Below are positions 25,203 through 42,482 of a stretch of 64,000 nt of DNA, one piece after another. The notes under the pieces are model-generated. The model was not told the DNA's origin, did not search any database, and worked only from the letters and a program-made list of their open reading frames with translations. A program made the translations under genes and the position numbers. Source of the stretch: Rhodoferax sp. GTDB lineage: Bacteria; Pseudomonadota; Gammaproteobacteria; Burkholderiales; Burkholderiaceae_C. The stretch lies in the NCBI GenBank assembly GCA_031291305.1, contig JARLJH010000063.1, positions 1-64,000 on the forward strand, written 5' to 3'. Position 1 is the stretch's first letter; each line of letters opens with the position of its first letter.

Positions 25203-26819
25203 ATGCATCAAAAAATCCTCATCCTTGACTTTGGCTCCCAGGTCACGCAGCTGATTGCTCGGCGCATTCGCGAAGCGCATGTTTTCTGTGAGGTGCATCC
25301 GTGCGATGTTACCGACGACTGGATTCGTGCCTATGCCCGTGACGGTATGCTCAAAGGCATCATTCTGTCGGGCAGCCATGCCAGCACCTACGAGGAGCAC
25401 GATTTGCGTGCGCCGCAAGCCGTTTACGAACTCGGCATTCCCGTGCTGGGTATCTGCTATGGCATGTTCACCATGGCCGTTCAGCTTGGTGGCATCGTTG
25501 CCGCTAGCAACAAGCGAGAGTTTGGTCACGCCGATGTGCGTGCCCACGGCCATACCGCGTTGCTGGAAGGTATTCAAGACTATGCCACACCCATGGGCCA
25601 TGGCATGCTGCAGGTCTGGATGAGCCATGGCGACAAGGTGACCGAGTTACCCCACGGCTTCAAACTGATGGCCAGCACAGACAGCTGCCCGATTGCCGGC
25701 ATGGCCGACGAAGAACGCCGCTTTTATGCCGTGCAGTTCCACCCTGAAGTCACCCACACCAAGCGCGGTGCGGCGATCTTGGAACGCTTTGTACTCGACA
25801 TTTGCGGGACAAGAGCCGACTGGATCATGGGGGATTACATCAGTGAAGCCGTTGCGAAAATTCGTGAACAGGTAGGTGATGAAGAAGTCATTCTGGGTTT
25901 GTCCGGCGGTGTTGACTCTTCGGTGGCGGCTGCGCTTATTCACCGCGCCATCGGCGACCAGCTGACCTGCGTGTTTGTCGACCACGGCTTGTTGCGTCTC
26001 AACGAAGGCGACATGGTGATGGACATGTTTGTTGGCAAGCTGCATGCCAAGGTGATTCGTGTGGATGCCGCTGACCAGTTTCTGGGGCATCTGGCGGGTG
26101 TCAGCGACCCGGAAGCCAAGCGCAAGATCATTGGTCGTGAATTTGTAGAGGTTTTTAAGGCGCAAGCCCAAGTGTTAACAGCTAAGGATGCTACTAAAAA
26201 AGGTGCAAAGTGGTTGGCCCAAGGCACCATTTATCCTGATGTGATCGAGTCCGGCGGCGCCAAAACCAAAAAGGCTGTGACCATCAAGAGCCACCACAAC
26301 GTCGGAGGCTTGCCTGAGCAACTCGGTCTGAAACTGCTGGAACCTTTGCGCGAACTATTCAAGGACGAAGTTCGTGAACTCGGTGTGGCACTGGGCTTGC
26401 CGTACAACATGGTCTACCGTCATCCGTTTCCGGGACCTGGTCTGGGGGTGCGGATTTTGGGCGAGGTTAAAAAAGAATATGCTGATCTGCTGCGTCGGGC
26501 TGATGCCATCTTCATCGAAGAATTGCACAACTTTGTCGATGAAGCTAGCGGTAAAAGCTGGTACGACCTCACCAGCCAAGCGTTTACTGTGTTTCTGCCA
26601 GTGAAAAGCGTCGGCGTGATGGGCGATGGCCGCACTTATGACTACGTGGTGGCCCTGCGTGCCGTGCAAACCAGCGATTTCATGACCGCCGATTGGGCCG
26701 AATTACCCTACGCACTGCTGAAAAAGGTGTCCAGTCGCATCATCAACGAAGTGCGTGGCATCAACCGCGTGACCTACGACGTCAGTAGCAAGCCACCGGC
26801 TACCATCGAGTGGGAATGA
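25203..26819 (+). CDS. guaA: GMP synthase (glutamine-hydrolysing)
   Basis: 538 aa. Class I glutamine amidotransferase (Cys85 in GICYGMF), ATP pyrophosphatase loop LSGGVDSS, and the C-terminal dimerisation domain ending ATIEWE. It converts XMP to GMP. The insertion [17 protein letters not shown] (26150-26210) is longer than in E. coli and may derive from an interspersed repeat. The last codons and stop are part of the attachment site of the genomic island downstream. Confidence 0.97.
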
Positions 26820-26831
26820 TCACACGTCTGG
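26808..26831 (+). repeat. attL of the guaA-integrated island
   Basis: The last guaA codons, stop and a few bases beyond read GAGTGGGAATGATC-ACA-CGTCTGG. The same string, with two differences (CCG for ACA), occurs in the same orientation at 42459-42482. The guaA 3' end is a known integration hotspot for P4-type integrases, and the integrase gene follows directly. Confidence 0.85.
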
Positions 26832-26866
26832 CATCAGCAGGCATCTGATGGCATCAAAACACCCGT

Positions 26867-26892
26867 AAGCCCGCGTCACTGCGGGCTTTTTT
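26867..26892 (+). terminator. Intrinsic terminator after guaA
   Basis: AAGCCCGC (26867-26874) / GCGGGCTT (26881-26888) with loop GTCACT and a T run. It lies just inside the island, so the island now supplies the guaA terminator. Confidence 0.75.
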
Positions 26893-26948
26893 GCTTTTTG
26901 GTCTGGCATTGACTGGCATCTTCAAGCACCGGCAAGTACGCTTTTCTT

Positions 26949-27105
26949 ATGGTACGGCGGATGGTACTATCTCAGTCGATACCATGATAGACACGCGATA
27001 CCATGCCATGATCTTTAGACTCGGCATGGCATTGAAAATACGTAACATGTTGATTTGTAAGTAGAAAAGCCGTTTTTTTCCTGCTGATTTTTATCATGGT
27101 ATTTT
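26949..27105. promoter_or_regulatory. Cluster of ATGGTAT/ATACCAT sites, likely integrase arm sites
   Basis: ATGGTAC at 26949 and 26961, GATACCATG at 26978 and 26997, CATGGTATTTT at 27095. The same motif recurs near the right end (42377, 42390). Repeated short motifs close to both att sites are the usual arrangement of arm-type binding sites for the integrase N-terminal domain or of Xis sites. Confidence 0.5.
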
Positions 27106-27127
27106 GAACCTAGATAGGACGAATGCC

Positions 27128-28336
27128 ATGCTCACCGATACCAAGCTGCGCAACATCAAGCCGCAGGACAAGCTCTACAAAGTCAACGACCGCGACGGCC
27201 TCTATGTGGCCGTCACACCCGCCGGAGCGATCTCGTTCCGCTACAACTACTCGATCAACGGTAGGCAGGAAACCATCACCTTCGGTCGCTACGGCACCGG
27301 GGGCATCACCTTGTCGGAAGCCCGCGAGCAGCTGGGTGAAGCCAAGAAGATGATTGCGGCAGGCAAGTCACCGGCCAAGGAGAAGGCGCGAGACAAAGCC
27401 CGCGTAAAAGATGCCGAGACATTCGGTGCATGGGCCGAAAAGTGGTTACGCGGCTACCAAATGGCCGACTCGACCAGAGATATGCGCCGTGCAATCTATG
27501 AGCGAGAGTTGAAACCGAAATTCGGCAACCAGAAGCTGGTAGAAATCACCCATGAGGACTTGCGGACGCTGACCGATACCATTGTTGAGCGCGGCGCGCC
27601 AGCTACGGCGGTGCATGTGCGCGAAGTAGTGATGCAGGTTTTTCGGTGGGCAATCGAGCGTGGCCAGAAGGTGGAAAACCCGGCGGATATGGTCAGGCCA
27701 ACCACCATTGCCAAGTTTGAGCCACGTGATCGTGCGTTGACGCATGACGAGATCGGGCTGATGTACCAGTACATGGAGCGCATCGGCACGACACCCTCGA
27801 TTCGGGCTGCGGCCAAGTTGCTACTGTTGACAATGGTTCGCAAGAGTGAACTGACGAACGCTACATGGAGCGAAGTCAATTTCAGCGAAGCCCTTTGGAC
27901 GGTTCCCAAGGAGCGGATGAAGCGACGCAACCCCCATCACGTCTACCTATCTCGGCAGGCGCTGGATATTTTCATCGCACTGAAGACGTTTGCCGGTGGG
28001 TCTGAGTACGTTCTGCCATCAAGATATGACTCGGACTTGCCAATGAGCAGCGCCACGCTCAACCAGGTGCTGACGCTGACTTACAGGTTGGCACAGAAGG
28101 AAGGAAAGACGCTGGCGAAGTTCGGGCCGCACGATCTACGGCGAACGGCAAGCACTTTGCTACATGAAGCTGGATACAACACTGACTGGATTGAAAAGTG
28201 CCTCGCCCACGAGCAGAAGGGTGTAAGGGCGGTGTACAACAAGGCCGAATATCGGGAGCAACGCACGGCCATGCTGCAGGATTGGGCAGACATGATTGAT
28301 GAATGGACGGTCAAGCGGCAACGACCGAATGATTGA
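27128..28336 (+). CDS. P4-type tyrosine integrase of the guaA island
   Basis: 402 aa. N-terminal DUF4102-type arm-binding domain (LTDTKLRNIKPQDKLYKVNDRDGLYVAVTPAGAISFRYNY), a core-binding domain, and a catalytic domain with R (TMVRKSELTNATW), H-x-x-R (PHDLRRTASTLLHEAG) and H (CLAHEQ); the nucleophile is probably Tyr in RAVYNKAEY. Start at ATG 27128 with AGGA upstream. It lies about 300 nt from attL and overlaps the 3' end of the alpA-like gene on the other strand. It catalyses integration at, and with the alpA product probably excision from, guaA. Confidence 0.93.
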   Translation: MLTDTKLRNIKPQDKLYKVNDRDGLYVAVTPAGAISFRYNYSINGRQETITFGRYGTGGITLSEAREQLGEAKKMIAAGKSPAKEKARDKARVKDAETFGAWAEKWLRGYQMADSTRDMRRAIYERELKPKFGNQKLVEITHEDLRTLTDTIVERGAPATAVHVREVVMQVFRWAIERGQKVENPADMVRPTTIAKFEPRDRALTHDEIGLMYQYMERIGTTPSIRAAAKLLLLTMVRKSELTNATWSEVNFSEALWTVPKERMKRRNPHHVYLSRQALDIFIALKTFAGGSEYVLPSRYDSDLPMSSATLNQVLTLTYRLAQKEGKTLAKFGPHDLRRTASTLLHEAGYNTDWIEKCLAHEQKGVRAVYNKAEYREQRTAMLQDWADMIDEWTVKRQRPND

Positions 28337-28541
28337 CGCCAGGCCGGCTGGCCTGGTTGCCGGACGACCTTCGCGCCTCAATCCATGCCTCAACCTCTGA
28401 GAGGTCCCAAGCTACGTTGCGGCTGGTGAGCGCGATGCGGCGCGGGAATTCGCCACGCTGCTCCATGTTGAAAATCGTCCGTTCAGCCAGTGGAATCATG
28501 GCGAGCAGCTTTTTACGGTTGATGAGAGTCTTAGTTTTCAC
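28311..28541 (-). CDS. AlpA family excisionase/regulator
   Basis: 76 aa, GTG start at 28541 with AGGGAG seven bases upstream. AlpA/winged-HTH (MerR-like) block: INRKKLLAMIPLAERTIFNMEQRGEFPRRIALTSRNVAWDLSEVEAWIEAR. Such proteins activate the integrase or act as excisionases of P4-like islands. It is convergent with the integrase, overlapping its last 26 bases. Its start overlaps the stop of an upstream 34-codon leader ORF, suggesting coupled translation. Confidence 0.85.
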   Translation of the reverse strand: MKTKTLINRKKLLAMIPLAERTIFNMEQRGEFPRRIALTSRNVAWDLSEVEAWIEARRSSGNQASRPGVNHSVVAA

Positions 28542-28635
28542 AGTTGATCTCCCTGTGAAAACACTGTCTTTCCGGGATGTTGATCGGGCTCAAACTCGGG
28601 TTGAGGGGGGACGTAAGTGCCTTTTCGATTTGCAT
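28531..28635 (-). CDS. 34-codon leader ORF upstream of alpA
   Basis: ATG at 28635 (within the inverted repeat), TAA at 28531-28533, encoding a peptide starting MQIEKALT. Its first eight codons nearly match the 70-aa gene at 30083 (MQIEEALT), because they lie in the duplicated 111-bp sequence; the rest is unrelated. The stop overlaps the alpA GTG. It may be only a leader that couples alpA translation to the duplicated promoter and ribosome-binding site. Confidence 0.4.
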   Translation of the reverse strand: MQIEKALTSPLNPSLSPINIPERQCFHREINCEN

Positions 28636-28727
28636 ACGGTGTCATTCCTTCAATTACGTATCTATTGGTTGAAGGATGCCCGTTGGGTGAAGATAAGTCA
28701 GTCTATTAAGTTGTCAATTAAGTTGAC
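28617..28727 (-). repeat. 111-bp inverted repeat, left copy, with promoter/operator
   Basis: Aligns without gaps to the reverse complement of 29991-30101 (about 16 mismatches by eye, only 3 in the first 68 bases). On the minus strand it holds -35 TTGACA (28712-28717), a weak -10 TATCTT region, an operator GTCAA-TTAAG-TTGAC (28713-28727), an inverted pair CCTTCAA/TTGAAGG, a ribosome-binding site AAGGA and the ATG of a leader ORF. It drives alpA leftward. Confidence 0.75.
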
Positions 28728-28862
28728 GCCAAACGATGCAAACCAAAGGCATCGAGTGAAGTAGTAAAAAAGCAGAGCGTGTACACGCAATGAGACGCCT
28801 GCCCCATCTATTGGGTGGCATTGTGTGGTCGAGTGTTGAATTTCCTCGCCGCTATGTCGGGG
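28728..28862. other. Spacer between the left repeat and the zinc/HTH gene
   Basis: About 135 bases with no supported gene; a 7-codon ORF (MQTKGIE) follows the repeat but is probably meaningless. The repeats plus this spacer and the central gene make a 1.5-kb symmetric regulatory block. Confidence 0.3.
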
Positions 28863-29990
28863 TCAAATTTGTTCAGTAGATTCTGACTTTGAGCAAAGAA
28901 GATCGAGCCGGTAATCTGCTGGTATCGATTGCAGGGCTTTCGAAATTGCTTGCCGTTCCACGCAAAGCCGTTTGGCTATCTCGGATTGATTAAGACCGGA
29001 AAGCAGGAGAATGACAATTTCCTTTTTTCGATCAGATATTTTTTCATCCACCAGCATTCTGGCTTCATCACGAAGCCTTTTGTCGAGTAAGTCTACTGAG
29101 TTTTTATCAAACTCTAGGCCTTGACGCCGATGAGCAACCAGGCGACAGATGAATTCATCAACAAGCTTATTTCCCGAATTTGCGCGAGGCACTAACGCGC
29201 TACCCCAACTCTGACGTTCGAGGCGAAGAAATTCCAAATCAAATTTGGATTGATTTCTCTTGGCTTTCAGATAACTTGGACGGACCGAGTCATTGAATGG
29301 TGCTTTAGGTTTATGGTCACCGCAATAGAGTGAACTTAGTCTAAGGCGCTCGTCGTCTAGGTCCTGTGCCGGCCACGGGGCACCATTGATGTGTGCTGAA
29401 AGCTCGGTTTGTTGACCGCAGAGTCTGCAAACAAGGTTTTCACGGCGTGCATTGACTTTGCCGTGAGCCTTCTTCTTTGACTTCTTAGATCGACAGGCCA
29501 GTGCAAGTTCGCGGAGGCTATCAAGGCTCTGTGATGACGCATATGCGGTCTCAGCGGTGTCGCCGTACATTTCCTTTCCAAGGCTTGCGAAATGGATAAA
29601 TTGGTCCATCGCTGCAAAGCCATGACGACGTGCAATTTCACTTAAGAGATAGGTTTCACCCGTCTTTCCACCGCATGGCGTGAATGCACGGCGCATGCGC
29701 TCAGCTTTTTGTATTGCGGTCTCTATATCGCCCTCTGAGGGGGCTGAAGATCGCCATTTTTCCCATTGATAGCGATTCCATGCGTGATCCAGCAGGGCGC
29801 TGTTTAGGGCTGGATAGCGAAGGCAGAAGTCATGCCATGCGGGATCAATCAAATCACGCATCAGCCTGAATATGGAATAGCGCCGGGACTCAGCCGAGTA
29901 CGGCCCCCAGCTCTCTAAAAACAATTCGATGGCCTTTGCTAACTGTGGGTCGCAGCCAGGCCAGGCAGTGATTTTTCTTGATTCCGTCAT
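28863..29990 (-). CDS. Unknown zinc-binding/HTH protein of the island
   Basis: 375 aa, not recognised as a named family. The middle holds a probable zinc site (CRLCG... H... CGDH, about residues 190-232). The C-terminus holds a helix-turn-helix like those of sigma-70 region 4 or LuxR (VILLLSGLNQSEIAKRLCVERQAISKAL). The start ATG directly abuts the operator GTCAACTCAATTGAC, leaving no clear ribosome-binding site. It sits between the two outward-facing inverted-repeat promoters, so I infer that it regulates one or both of them; this is untested. Confidence 0.65.
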   Translation of the reverse strand: MTESRKITAWPGCDPQLAKAIELFLESWGPYSAESRRYSIFRLMRDLIDPAWHDFCLRYPALNSALLDHAWNRYQWEKWRSSAPSEGDIETAIQKAERMRRAFTPCGGKTGETYLLSEIARRHGFAAMDQFIHFASLGKEMYGDTAETAYASSQSLDSLRELALACRSKKSKKKAHGKVNARRENLVCRLCGQQTELSAHINGAPWPAQDLDDERLRLSSLYCGDHKPKAPFNDSVRPSYLKAKRNQSKFDLEFLRLERQSWGSALVPRANSGNKLVDEFICRLVAHRRQGLEFDKNSVDLLDKRLRDEARMLVDEKISDRKKEIVILLLSGLNQSEIAKRLCVERQAISKALQSIPADYRLDLLCSKSESTEQI

Positions 29991-30101
29991 GTCAACTCAA
30001 TTGACAACTTAATGGGCTGAATCATAACGCCTTACCGGGCATCCTTCAACCATTAGTTACGTAATTGAAGGAATGACACCGTATGCAAATCGAAGAGGCA
30101 C
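29991..30101 (+). repeat. 111-bp inverted repeat, right copy, with promoter/operator
   Basis: Mirror of 28617-28727. It contains operator GTCAA-CTCAA-TTGAC (29991-30005), -35 TTGACA (30001-30006), a -10-like CATAAC (30023-30028, 16-bp spacing), the palindrome pair CCTTCAA...TTGAAGG, GAAGGA (30067-30072) and the ATG of the 70-aa gene at 30083. It drives the small HTH gene and the replication initiator rightward. Confidence 0.75.
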
Positions 30102-30295
30102 TGACCAAGCAGTACGGTCCACTATTGAGCGTTGCACAGCTTGCGAAGGTGCTGGATCGCTCAGCCGAAGGGCTGCGCATCAGTTTGCGCACTGATTCGG
30201 ATTGGTCCAAACCTATCAATGCAGCCAAGCTAAAGCTAGGTCGGCGTGTTTACTTTCGGACCGCTGAAATTGCCCGCGTTCTGAGCGGCAAGTAA
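30083..30295 (+). CDS. Small HTH DNA-binding protein upstream of the replication gene
   Basis: 70 aa with a helix-turn-helix (LLSVAQLAKVLDRSAEGLRISLR) and a C-terminal part (AKLKLGRRVYFRTAEIARVL) reminiscent of AlpA/MerR-like or plasmid repressor proteins. It lies 10 nt before the TrfA-like gene and probably regulates it. Its first codons are in the duplicated repeat. Confidence 0.7.
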   Translation: MQIEEALTKQYGPLLSVAQLAKVLDRSAEGLRISLRTDSDWSKPINAAKLKLGRRVYFRTAEIARVLSGK

Positions 30296-30305
30296 AGCGG
30301 CCGGC

Positions 30306-31193
30306 ATGACATCTTCACTGCTTGCTCAACATCCCGCGTTGGTTGCGCGGATGGCAGAGGCACAGGCCCGCACCGCAGCGCGCCGCGAATCGCCTGAGCC
30401 ACAGCAGATGTTCTTGCCAGGGCTTGACCCCGAAGTTAGGGCGATGCCAAACCATGTCGCCCGATCATCACTTTTTGCTCCTGTTGCCCGTGGCCGCAAG
30501 GTTCTGCATGAGCAGGCGGTTCTGGTGAGCCGTGCAGACGCCACTATCACTTACACCGGGTATCAGCTGGATGAGGCTCAGGCCGATGCGTGGATGCAGC
30601 TCATGTTCGAGGCGAAGGATGCCCCGCTTGGTCAGCCTGTCCTCATCAATCGAGCTGCATTCCTGCAGGCCATTGGACGCGGGACGAGCGGCCGGGAATA
30701 CGAGTGGCTACATCGAGCGATGTTCGTGTTCACGGCAGCAACCATCGTCATTGAGACGCGCAAGCGAGACGGCGCACCGAAGTACCGCTTGGGGCACACC
30801 AAGGCGTTTCACATGCTGGCCGATTTTGAATATGACGCGGATGCCGAAACCTACACCTTCACCATTGATCCGCGTTGGAAAACACTATTTGGTGGCCAGG
30901 AATACGCCCTGATCGACTGGGACAAGCGTTTGCAGATCGCCCAGGGCCAAGACATGGCAAAGGCGCTGCAGCGGCTGACCGCAACATCCTCAGACCCTGT
31001 GCAGCGGTACGCGCTGGACTGGCTTAAAGAAAAGCTCCAGTACACCAGTCCGATTCGGAAGTTCAAGGCATCGTTGATCGCTGCCATGCAGGAGTTGGAG
31101 CGTGTTGGCGTCATCGCCGGCGGCCGCATCGAACGCAGCACCAAGGGCCGTGAGCAGGCGGCCTGGACCAAGCTGGCCGGGGAGGAGTCTTGA
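30306..31193 (+). CDS. TrfA-like plasmid replication initiator
   Basis: 295 aa. The block ARSSLFAPVARGRKVLHEQAVLVSRADATITYTGYQLDEAQADAWMQLM, followed by GREYEWLHRAM and a C-terminal winged-helix-like region, resembles TrfA, the initiator of IncP plasmids. The gene is directly followed by four iterons (31208-31285), which are the expected binding sites. I infer that the excised island can replicate; whether the protein is active is unknown. Confidence 0.82.
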   Translation: MTSSLLAQHPALVARMAEAQARTAARRESPEPQQMFLPGLDPEVRAMPNHVARSSLFAPVARGRKVLHEQAVLVSRADATITYTGYQLDEAQADAWMQLMFEAKDAPLGQPVLINRAAFLQAIGRGTSGREYEWLHRAMFVFTAATIVIETRKRDGAPKYRLGHTKAFHMLADFEYDADAETYTFTIDPRWKTLFGGQEYALIDWDKRLQIAQGQDMAKALQRLTATSSDPVQRYALDWLKEKLQYTSPIRKFKASLIAAMQELERVGVIAGGRIERSTKGREQAAWTKLAGEES

Positions 31194-31206: not shown

Positions 31207-31386
31207 TCGTGTTTGCGTTCCGGGGGCGTCGTGTTTGCGTTCCGCTTTCTCGTGTTTGGATTCCGCTTCTTCGTGTTTGCGTTCCACCCCATCGCCGCAA
31301 ACCCGCATGGGCATTGGCTTTAAGAGCAGTTCGCCGCCCTCTACCTTCTTTTTACCTTCTCTTTACCGGGAAGTGCCTGTGGACAA
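31207..31386 (+). other. Iteron-type replication origin (oriV)
   Basis: Four direct repeats CGTGTTTGCGTTCC start at 31208, 31230, 31251 (two differences) and 31272, i.e. every 21-22 bp. Three T-rich repeats with TACC at 31342, 31353 and 31364 (11-bp period) look like an unwinding element, and TGTGGACAA at 31378-31386 is one base from a DnaA box. The order initiator gene, iterons, AT-rich repeats, DnaA box is typical of theta-replicating plasmids. Confidence 0.75.
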
Positions 31387-36126: not shown

Positions 36127-36177
36127 GAGAGCTGCCATGACCCGTCAAAGATACACCAAGAAGCAGGGAGCGTGAAG

Positions 36178-36483
36178 ATGGCTTTTTTCATAACCTACGT
36201 TGTTAACGAGGGTCAGGGCGCTATTCGCGTGACCCTGCCTGACTTCAGTATCCACACGTTTGTTCAGGCGATTTGTGACGTGCCAGAGCAGGTGCAAAAG
36301 GCGCTGGCCGAGCAATACCGGGGACCCGTTCCGAAGGATTCGCATATCGAGGATTGGCAGAACGATGCTAACTATCGGGGCGGTTGGTGGCTATGGCTCA
36401 ACATTGACGTGGACGACCTCGCTGGTCGCGGCAGGCGTGGGCGACGCCAGCGGCCTGCATCGGCTCAGGTAGCAGCATCTTGA
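36178..36483 (+). CDS. HicB-like small protein, second copy type
   Basis: 101 aa from ATG 36178 (GGGAG seven bases upstream; a GTG at 36172 is too close). FFITYVVNEGQGAIRVTLPDFSIHTFVQAICDVPEQVQKALAEQY resembles the HicB antitoxin strand-PD-helix pattern; the tail is tryptophan-rich then strongly basic (GRRGRRQR). No toxin partner is adjacent. It precedes traB. Confidence 0.5.
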   Translation: MAFFITYVVNEGQGAIRVTLPDFSIHTFVQAICDVPEQVQKALAEQYRGPVPKDSHIEDWQNDANYRGGWWLWLNIDVDDLAGRGRRGRRQRPASAQVAAS

Positions 36484-42458: not shown

Positions 42459-42482
42459 GAGTGGGAATGATCCCGCGTCTGG
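42459..42482 (+). repeat. attR of the guaA-integrated island
   Basis: GAGTGGGAATGATC-CCG-CGTCTGG, in the same orientation as attL at 26808-26831, with two mismatches. The next gene (42526) is ordinary chromosome, so the island ends here. The 24-bp repeat copies the end of guaA including the stop codon. Confidence 0.85.

Follow-up and report, generated by a model that had tools for sequence, protein, structure and literature searches.

A putative switch gene between inverted promoter copies in a guaA-integrated island of Rhodoferax sp., and signs of its exchange as a cassette

Why does a mobile island carry one gene between two outward-facing copies of the same promoter region, one facing an excision gene and the other facing replication genes? 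This arrangement was noticed in an initial annotation of 64 kb of DNA (64,000 nucleotides; hereafter, the window) from a Rhodoferax sp. contig. Here, we report a computational analysis of the locus and its relatives. The reading that we favor, at a probability of roughly 70%, is that an island-encoded switch protein binds matched operators, jointly controls its own gene, replication, and excision (with mobilisation in some islands), and is exchanged with those operators as a cassette.

The end of guaA forms the first copy of a 24-bp direct repeat (22/24 identical) that recurs at the right end of the island (Table 1), which therefore is 15.67 kb long; judged by its sequence, the island is integrated at guaA and related to GIsul2. 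The alpA, small helix-turn-helix (HTH), and TrfA-like genes were all found by Pfam search where the initial annotation had placed them, and a TrbL gene is also present around the central repeat block. A motif scan of the island returned two operators in total, with none before the integrase and none before a mobilisation gene. The left copy had been described as carrying an ATG and driving alpA; the duplicated ATG (position 28635) opens a 34-aa leader open reading frame (ORF), which overlaps alpA because its stop codon (28531-28533) sits just beyond the alpA GTG (28541). Leader ORFs of two related loci (L046 and L048) likewise overlap the alpA start; in L047, L050, L051, and L098, the duplicated ATG is itself the first codon of the alpA frame.

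Table 1. Features of the guaA island, with positions in the window
Feature	Position	Strand	Evidence
Island left end, att core at guaA 3' end	26808..26831	+	24-bp direct repeat
Tyrosine integrase	27104..28336	+	PF00589, 1.8e-22; 80.7% DNA identity to plasmid-borne GIsul2-type integrases
alpA, likely excision factor, GTG start	28311..28541	-	PF05930, 2e-11
34-aa leader ORF begun by duplicated ATG, overlapping alpA start	28531..28635	-	Read from sequence
Left promoter/initiation copy, facing alpA	28613..28727	-	98/115 identical to right copy
Ribosome-binding-site stem, left copy (predicted)	28647..28675	-	Shine-Dalgarno pairing 1.00, z -2.13
Left operator, 26 bp, oriented towards alpA	28702..28727	-	Motif A score 28.8; one of two island sites
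375-aa putative regulator, RegA family, CxxC/CxxH and C-terminal HTH	28863..29990	-	Pfam, alignment, hhalign, AlphaFold2
Right promoter/initiation copy, facing small HTH gene and trfA	29991..30105	+	Repeat search, alignment
Right operator, adjoining regulator start codon	29991..30016	+	Motif A score 29.4
Ribosome-binding-site stem, right copy (predicted)	30043..30071	+	Shine-Dalgarno pairing 1.00, z -1.46
70-aa small HTH gene	30083..30295	+	PF12728, 8.4e-4, below cut-off; 30 relatives
TrfA-like replication initiator	30306..31193	+	PF07042, 2.2e-9
Island right end, att core	42459..42482	+	24-bp direct repeat with left end

The two copies had been described as an ungapped inverted repeat of 111 bp with about 16 mismatches, and the description holds with slightly longer arms: the repeat search gave 115 nt, 85% complementary, spaced 1263 nt apart, and direct ungapped alignment gave 98/115 identical positions (17 mismatches). 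The runner-up inverted pair within the 5-kb region was merely 27 nt at 70%. Read on the strand of the gene that it faces, each copy comprises a directional operator of 26 bp, a predicted hairpin covering the Shine-Dalgarno sequence, and an ATG with the opening codons of the small HTH gene; we infer that the duplication ran from the small HTH gene to alpA. The operator string GTCAACTNAATTGACAACTTAAT occurs at two sites in the 64 kb, each with 0 mismatches and with no other site within 3 mismatches, against a mean of 0.00 across 100 dinucleotide shuffles. A palindromic operator (GTCAA-N5-TTGAC) had been proposed; it was rejected, as the palindrome is not kept among relatives, which instead conserve two direct, head-to-tail half-sites (GTCAAC, then CAAC or CAAT, then AAT). 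The -35 hexamer TTGACA, attributed to each copy, is present in both and falls within the operator, but a sigma70-like promoter passes the scan rule on the left copy only (TTGACA-16-TATCTT, 10/12), in a scan that found 3 sites overall against 1.7 expected.

The CCTTCAA/TTGAAGG pair of each copy looks less like an operator than like an RNA hairpin, predicted to cover the Shine-Dalgarno sequence. At least 75% of the Shine-Dalgarno was paired in 25/28 copies versus 3/24 other gene starts (window plus five loci; predicted folding), in a comparison where the copies are mutually related, the Shine-Dalgarno was chosen by a simple rule, and one control start (trbJ) is mis-set. Pairing fell below 75% in L040 and in both L048 copies. 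The stem was found, scored by presence, in copies of differing sequence, those of L098 among them. An Rfam search at gathering thresholds returned no match. Ribosome-binding sites of repA/trfA are also predicted to fold strongly (pairing 0.83-0.99; L010:9658-10536, L055:5238-6116, and 30306 in the window), a hint that translation of these genes is coupled to that of the small HTH gene.

Relatives were obtained by scanning a genome-contig collection with the small HTH protein, which yielded 30 loci. Across the analysis, 6/25 genomes of one match set and 11/14 of another were covered. The symmetric block recurs in several of these islands: long inverted copies of 97-116 nt were detected with BLAST in 5/30 loci (L046, L047, L048, L050, and L051, with the L050 contig belonging to a Comamonas genome from the same family as the window host). 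L098 has a further one (111 nt at 75%), inspection by eye shows a diverged one in L108, and an operator repeat of 62 nt is present in L129. Relatives commonly lack the long second copy yet keep the operator before alpA. An operator copy precedes alpA in 33/33 rows with a regulator, alpA, and the small HTH gene, comprising 31 by scan (p <= 0.008 each, 500 shuffles), with the window and L046 added from the alignment and the motif scan; these rows represent 32 distinct genomes (L111 is the genome of L061) and 14 regulator clusters at 85% identity. The window and L046 were missed by the scan because their leader ORFs place the operator further upstream. In 29/33 rows, no more than 32-154 nt separate alpA from the regulator ahead of it, yet the operator persists there. 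The count leaves out L049, L052, L053, L054, L040, L090, and L091 (no alpA in the stretch), L011 and L012 (no small HTH gene), and L098 (another regulator). More distant small-HTH loci (L092-L097, L109, L110, and L130-L135) had no such regulator or alpA, and the stretches around TrfA relatives at 36-47% (L041-L044) had none of the small HTH gene, regulator, or alpA.

The central gene had been described as encoding a zinc site and a C-terminal HTH. The HTH is supported by Pfam matches, all below curated cut-offs, and residues C188, C191, C223, and H226 are invariant in 14/14 aligned relatives; these four would be the ligands of a putative zinc site. In the AlphaFold2 model (mean pLDDT, 73; blocks 321-360 at 92-95), the C-terminal HTH is predicted with confidence and the rest, less certainly, as mostly helical. 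The window protein belongs to one family (RegA) that shares its C-terminal HTH region with a second (RegB; hhalign probability 97.7, E 1.4e-12), and the CxxC and CxxH residues are invariant in each (14/14 RegA, 5/5 RegB). Foldseek returned 0 matches of the model to pdb at E <= 0.001, and Pfam gave HTH_3 at 0.096 only (below cut-off), no peptidase S24, and no FlhDC-type activator match. For the KORA domain, known from the KorA (TrfB) repressors of IncP plasmids, no match was listed for the window protein, and the L048 and L047 proteins reached 14.1-14.5 bits, short of the curated cut-off of 26.7; a profile search of PDB gave weak matches to KORA chains. Searches of plasmids with the regulators or the small HTH protein, of phages with the cassette DNA, and of viral contigs returned no relatives, as did a first scan of the genome-contig collection; the RegB profile gave one weak match (4.7e-4) across 274 genomes of the class. 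In L098 (6682-7753), the regulator's place is taken by a 272-aa protein between 111-nt inverted copies of its own; it had no Pfam match at E <= 1 and, by its sequence, is a third regulator type unrelated to RegA and RegB. The RegA protein of L068 (3771-4928) has about 40 extra N-terminal residues that resemble, by eye, a transposase-type HTH.

Operator type follows regulator type. Motif A was confined to RegA targets (19/27 scanned), motif B was confined to RegB targets (7/27), and R485 had neither, with the motifs built from most of the sites later found and the rows related; L011, L012, and L090 took no part in building the motifs and also fit the pairing. The alpA operator matched the other operator of its own island at a mean of 20.4/26 positions (14 clusters); permuting the operator pairs gave 14.5/26 overall and 17.2/26 when partners were drawn from the same family (p ~5e-5 in each case, the lowest value that 20,000 permutations allow). 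Its own partner ranked first in 9/14 clusters, and 5/14 alpA operators fit another island's better. Within six islands, the inner operator region was 67-85% identical.

Three islands make the mosaic plain: those of the window, L046 (Undibacterium griseum), and L048 (Herminiimonas contaminans). The DNA flanking the center is 93-97% identical among them (93-96% for the two relatives against the window, with TrfA at 99%), and the center itself has no blastn match except at its ends. At the protein level, identities are 99-100% for the integrase, 99-100% for TrfA, and 94-99% for TrbL, versus 26, 26, and 47% for the regulators (those of L046 and L048 are each 26% identical to that of the window), and each island carries a matched operator pair of its own. 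Between the window and L046, the outer part of the copies agrees at 54/59 positions, whereas the inner operator part is alike only within each island. The window regulator is closer to that of L047 (52%), though the L047 TrfA is just 60% identical. The pattern suggests that regulator and operators move as one cassette between near-identical islands.

Sister islands also place an operator at mobilisation genes. A third, directly oriented copy lies ahead of a DUF5338 gene in RepA/RepC islands (with a NikA-like gene next in L010), and the operator stands at exactly -92 of the DUF5338 gene in 12/16 rows, or 11/15 distinct loci, because L010 and L056 are one genome.

The central gene product would, then, be the island's own DNA-binding switch protein, acting on a short directional operator. 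Through the right operator it would act on the small HTH gene together with the replication initiator, and through the left one on alpA; upon a presumed signal, its release would set off excision at the same time as replication, along with mobilisation in sister islands. Autoregulation and joint control are suggested because the right operator abuts the regulator start, TTGACA lies inside the operator, and the distance to the target start is near-fixed. The initial proposal, that one duplicated control region couples excision to replication, is thus supported by the comparison (an operator before every alpA counted, tracking regulator type), without its palindrome. As to the sign of control, we modestly prefer a repressor over an activator, because both window copies carry the -35 hexamer and because immunity-conferring repressors are expected to diversify in specificity.

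The best-placed alternative keeps the same regulon and makes the central protein a class II activator at the -35 position, like AcaCD in SGI1. It is argued for because copies outside the window mostly have no evident -35/-10 pair, and is also favored by the almost fixed operator orientation and start-codon distance and by AcaCD-controlled SGI1 promoters, which have no -35 box and fit class II activation (PMC5058578). We consider it unlikely, though worth keeping in view, since TTGACA stands in both window copies (with the promoter-like site on the left), the right operator adjoins the regulator's own start codon, and specificity exchange is more easily explained by a repressor. A profile for a -10 box at fixed distance over 32 copies peaked only within the operator. 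A sigma-54 promoter, read by eye from GGCAC boxes, was dropped because the spacing is off by one.

A switch protein encoded by the central gene also has to be weighed against other binders, namely, the small HTH protein, AlpA, or a host factor, with the central gene a mere neighbor. The first two are DNA-binding by family, and one operator always adjoins the small HTH gene, but operator type tracks RegA/RegB, and the window and L046 have different operators despite 97% identical small HTH and 93% identical AlpA proteins; we regard this explanation as improbable. Lower odds still attach to a duplication that arose by chance, has no shared function, and stays similar through gene conversion: the arms are indeed more similar within islands than between them, but the operator is kept before alpA even in copies that have otherwise diverged (L055-L075), and in L012 alpA has been relocated behind rep with an operator of its own. 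That the enclosed segment is an invertible switch, an alternative raised in the initial annotation and suggested by the 115-bp inverted repeats around one gene, was rejected as scarcely credible because the regulator points to alpA in a single orientation in 33/33 loci, with arms just 85% identical and no recombinase family matched by Pfam in the enclosed gene.

In the lambda immunity region, a regulator gene lies between two outward promoters with like operators, and the block is exchanged between lambdoid phages. The window resembles it in that outward promoters sharing one operator flank a putative regulator and that, at the level of sequence, regulator and operators are exchanged as a block; unlike lambda, it has no CI-like protein (HTH_3 plus peptidase S24). 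Tentatively, and at odds somewhat short of even, the guaA islands may hold exchangeable immunity cassettes, in which a regulator, together with the operators that it matches at replication, excision, and mobilisation genes, sets a specificity group. Such a group would block further islands of its own kind, and new groups would arise in a near-identical backbone as at least three regulator types (RegA, RegB, and the L098 protein, related to neither) recombine, as in phage heteroimmunity. Cassettes that did act as immunity groups would carry the phage heteroimmunity idea over to mobilisable islands. In the relatives, the predicted circuit is complete, from regulator through operator to regulon.

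Other known systems share parts of this arrangement. SetR of SXT/R391 is, like the window regulator, island-encoded and beside its operators, and controls excision and transfer; unlike it, SetR has four operators on one side of setR and is a CI-like protein with a peptidase domain (PMC4542580). The P2 C repressor also uses direct, not inverted, repeats but is an unrelated protein of 99 aa, with repeats 22 bp apart as opposed to 12-13 bp in the window (PMC4752584). In SGI1, AcaCD coordinates excision and replication, and an HTH_17 gene lies ahead of rep, so that, as in the window (where the HTH_17 match is below cut-off), one cis-element precedes both the excision factor and an HTH_17-rep operon (PMC7433901, PMC5058578). 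The SGI1 activator is supplied by a helper plasmid (and SgaCD) (PMC7433901, PMC5058578), whereas the window candidate is island-encoded, unrelated by Pfam search, and located between both promoters. GIsul2-type islands share with the window integration at the guaA 3' end, a related integrase, alpA, a rep module (RepA/RepC in GIsul2), and trbJKL, and the authors suspected that alpA there is without an efficient promoter (PMC9376610). The window differs in having a TrfA-like initiator in place of RepA/RepC, which occurs in sister islands such as L010, and in having the regulator and operators, both absent from the scanned R485 element (int, alpA, repA, repC, trbJKL, in that order).

In a literature search of titles and abstract openings, the regulator, operators, and exchange in guaA islands were not described among the matches listed. 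Coordinated excision and replication was already known from SGI1; what this locus would add is the flanking-operator cassette and its exchange, and its regulators belong to no named family. GIsul2-type islands spread resistance genes.

Several smaller features were recorded. Beside the left att (26830-26920) are five GGCAT(C/T) direct repeats (at 26830, 26840, 26850, 26905, and 26915, in 10-bp steps), the only such tandem places in the 64 kb on the pattern used and candidate integrase-arm or AlpA sites; one GGCATC is also present in each promoter copy. Immediately past trfA (31207-31291) are four 21-bp direct repeats (TCGTGTTTGCGTTCC...) that may be iterons of an origin of replication. On the right side of the island (36172-36483), a weak HicB-like match (5.1e-4, below cut-off) is possibly the remnant of a toxin-antitoxin pair. 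The island of Candidatus Burkholderia pumila (L073:1143-4928) looks decayed, with integrase and regulator matches split over several frames; operator-like sites persist there despite the apparent decay.
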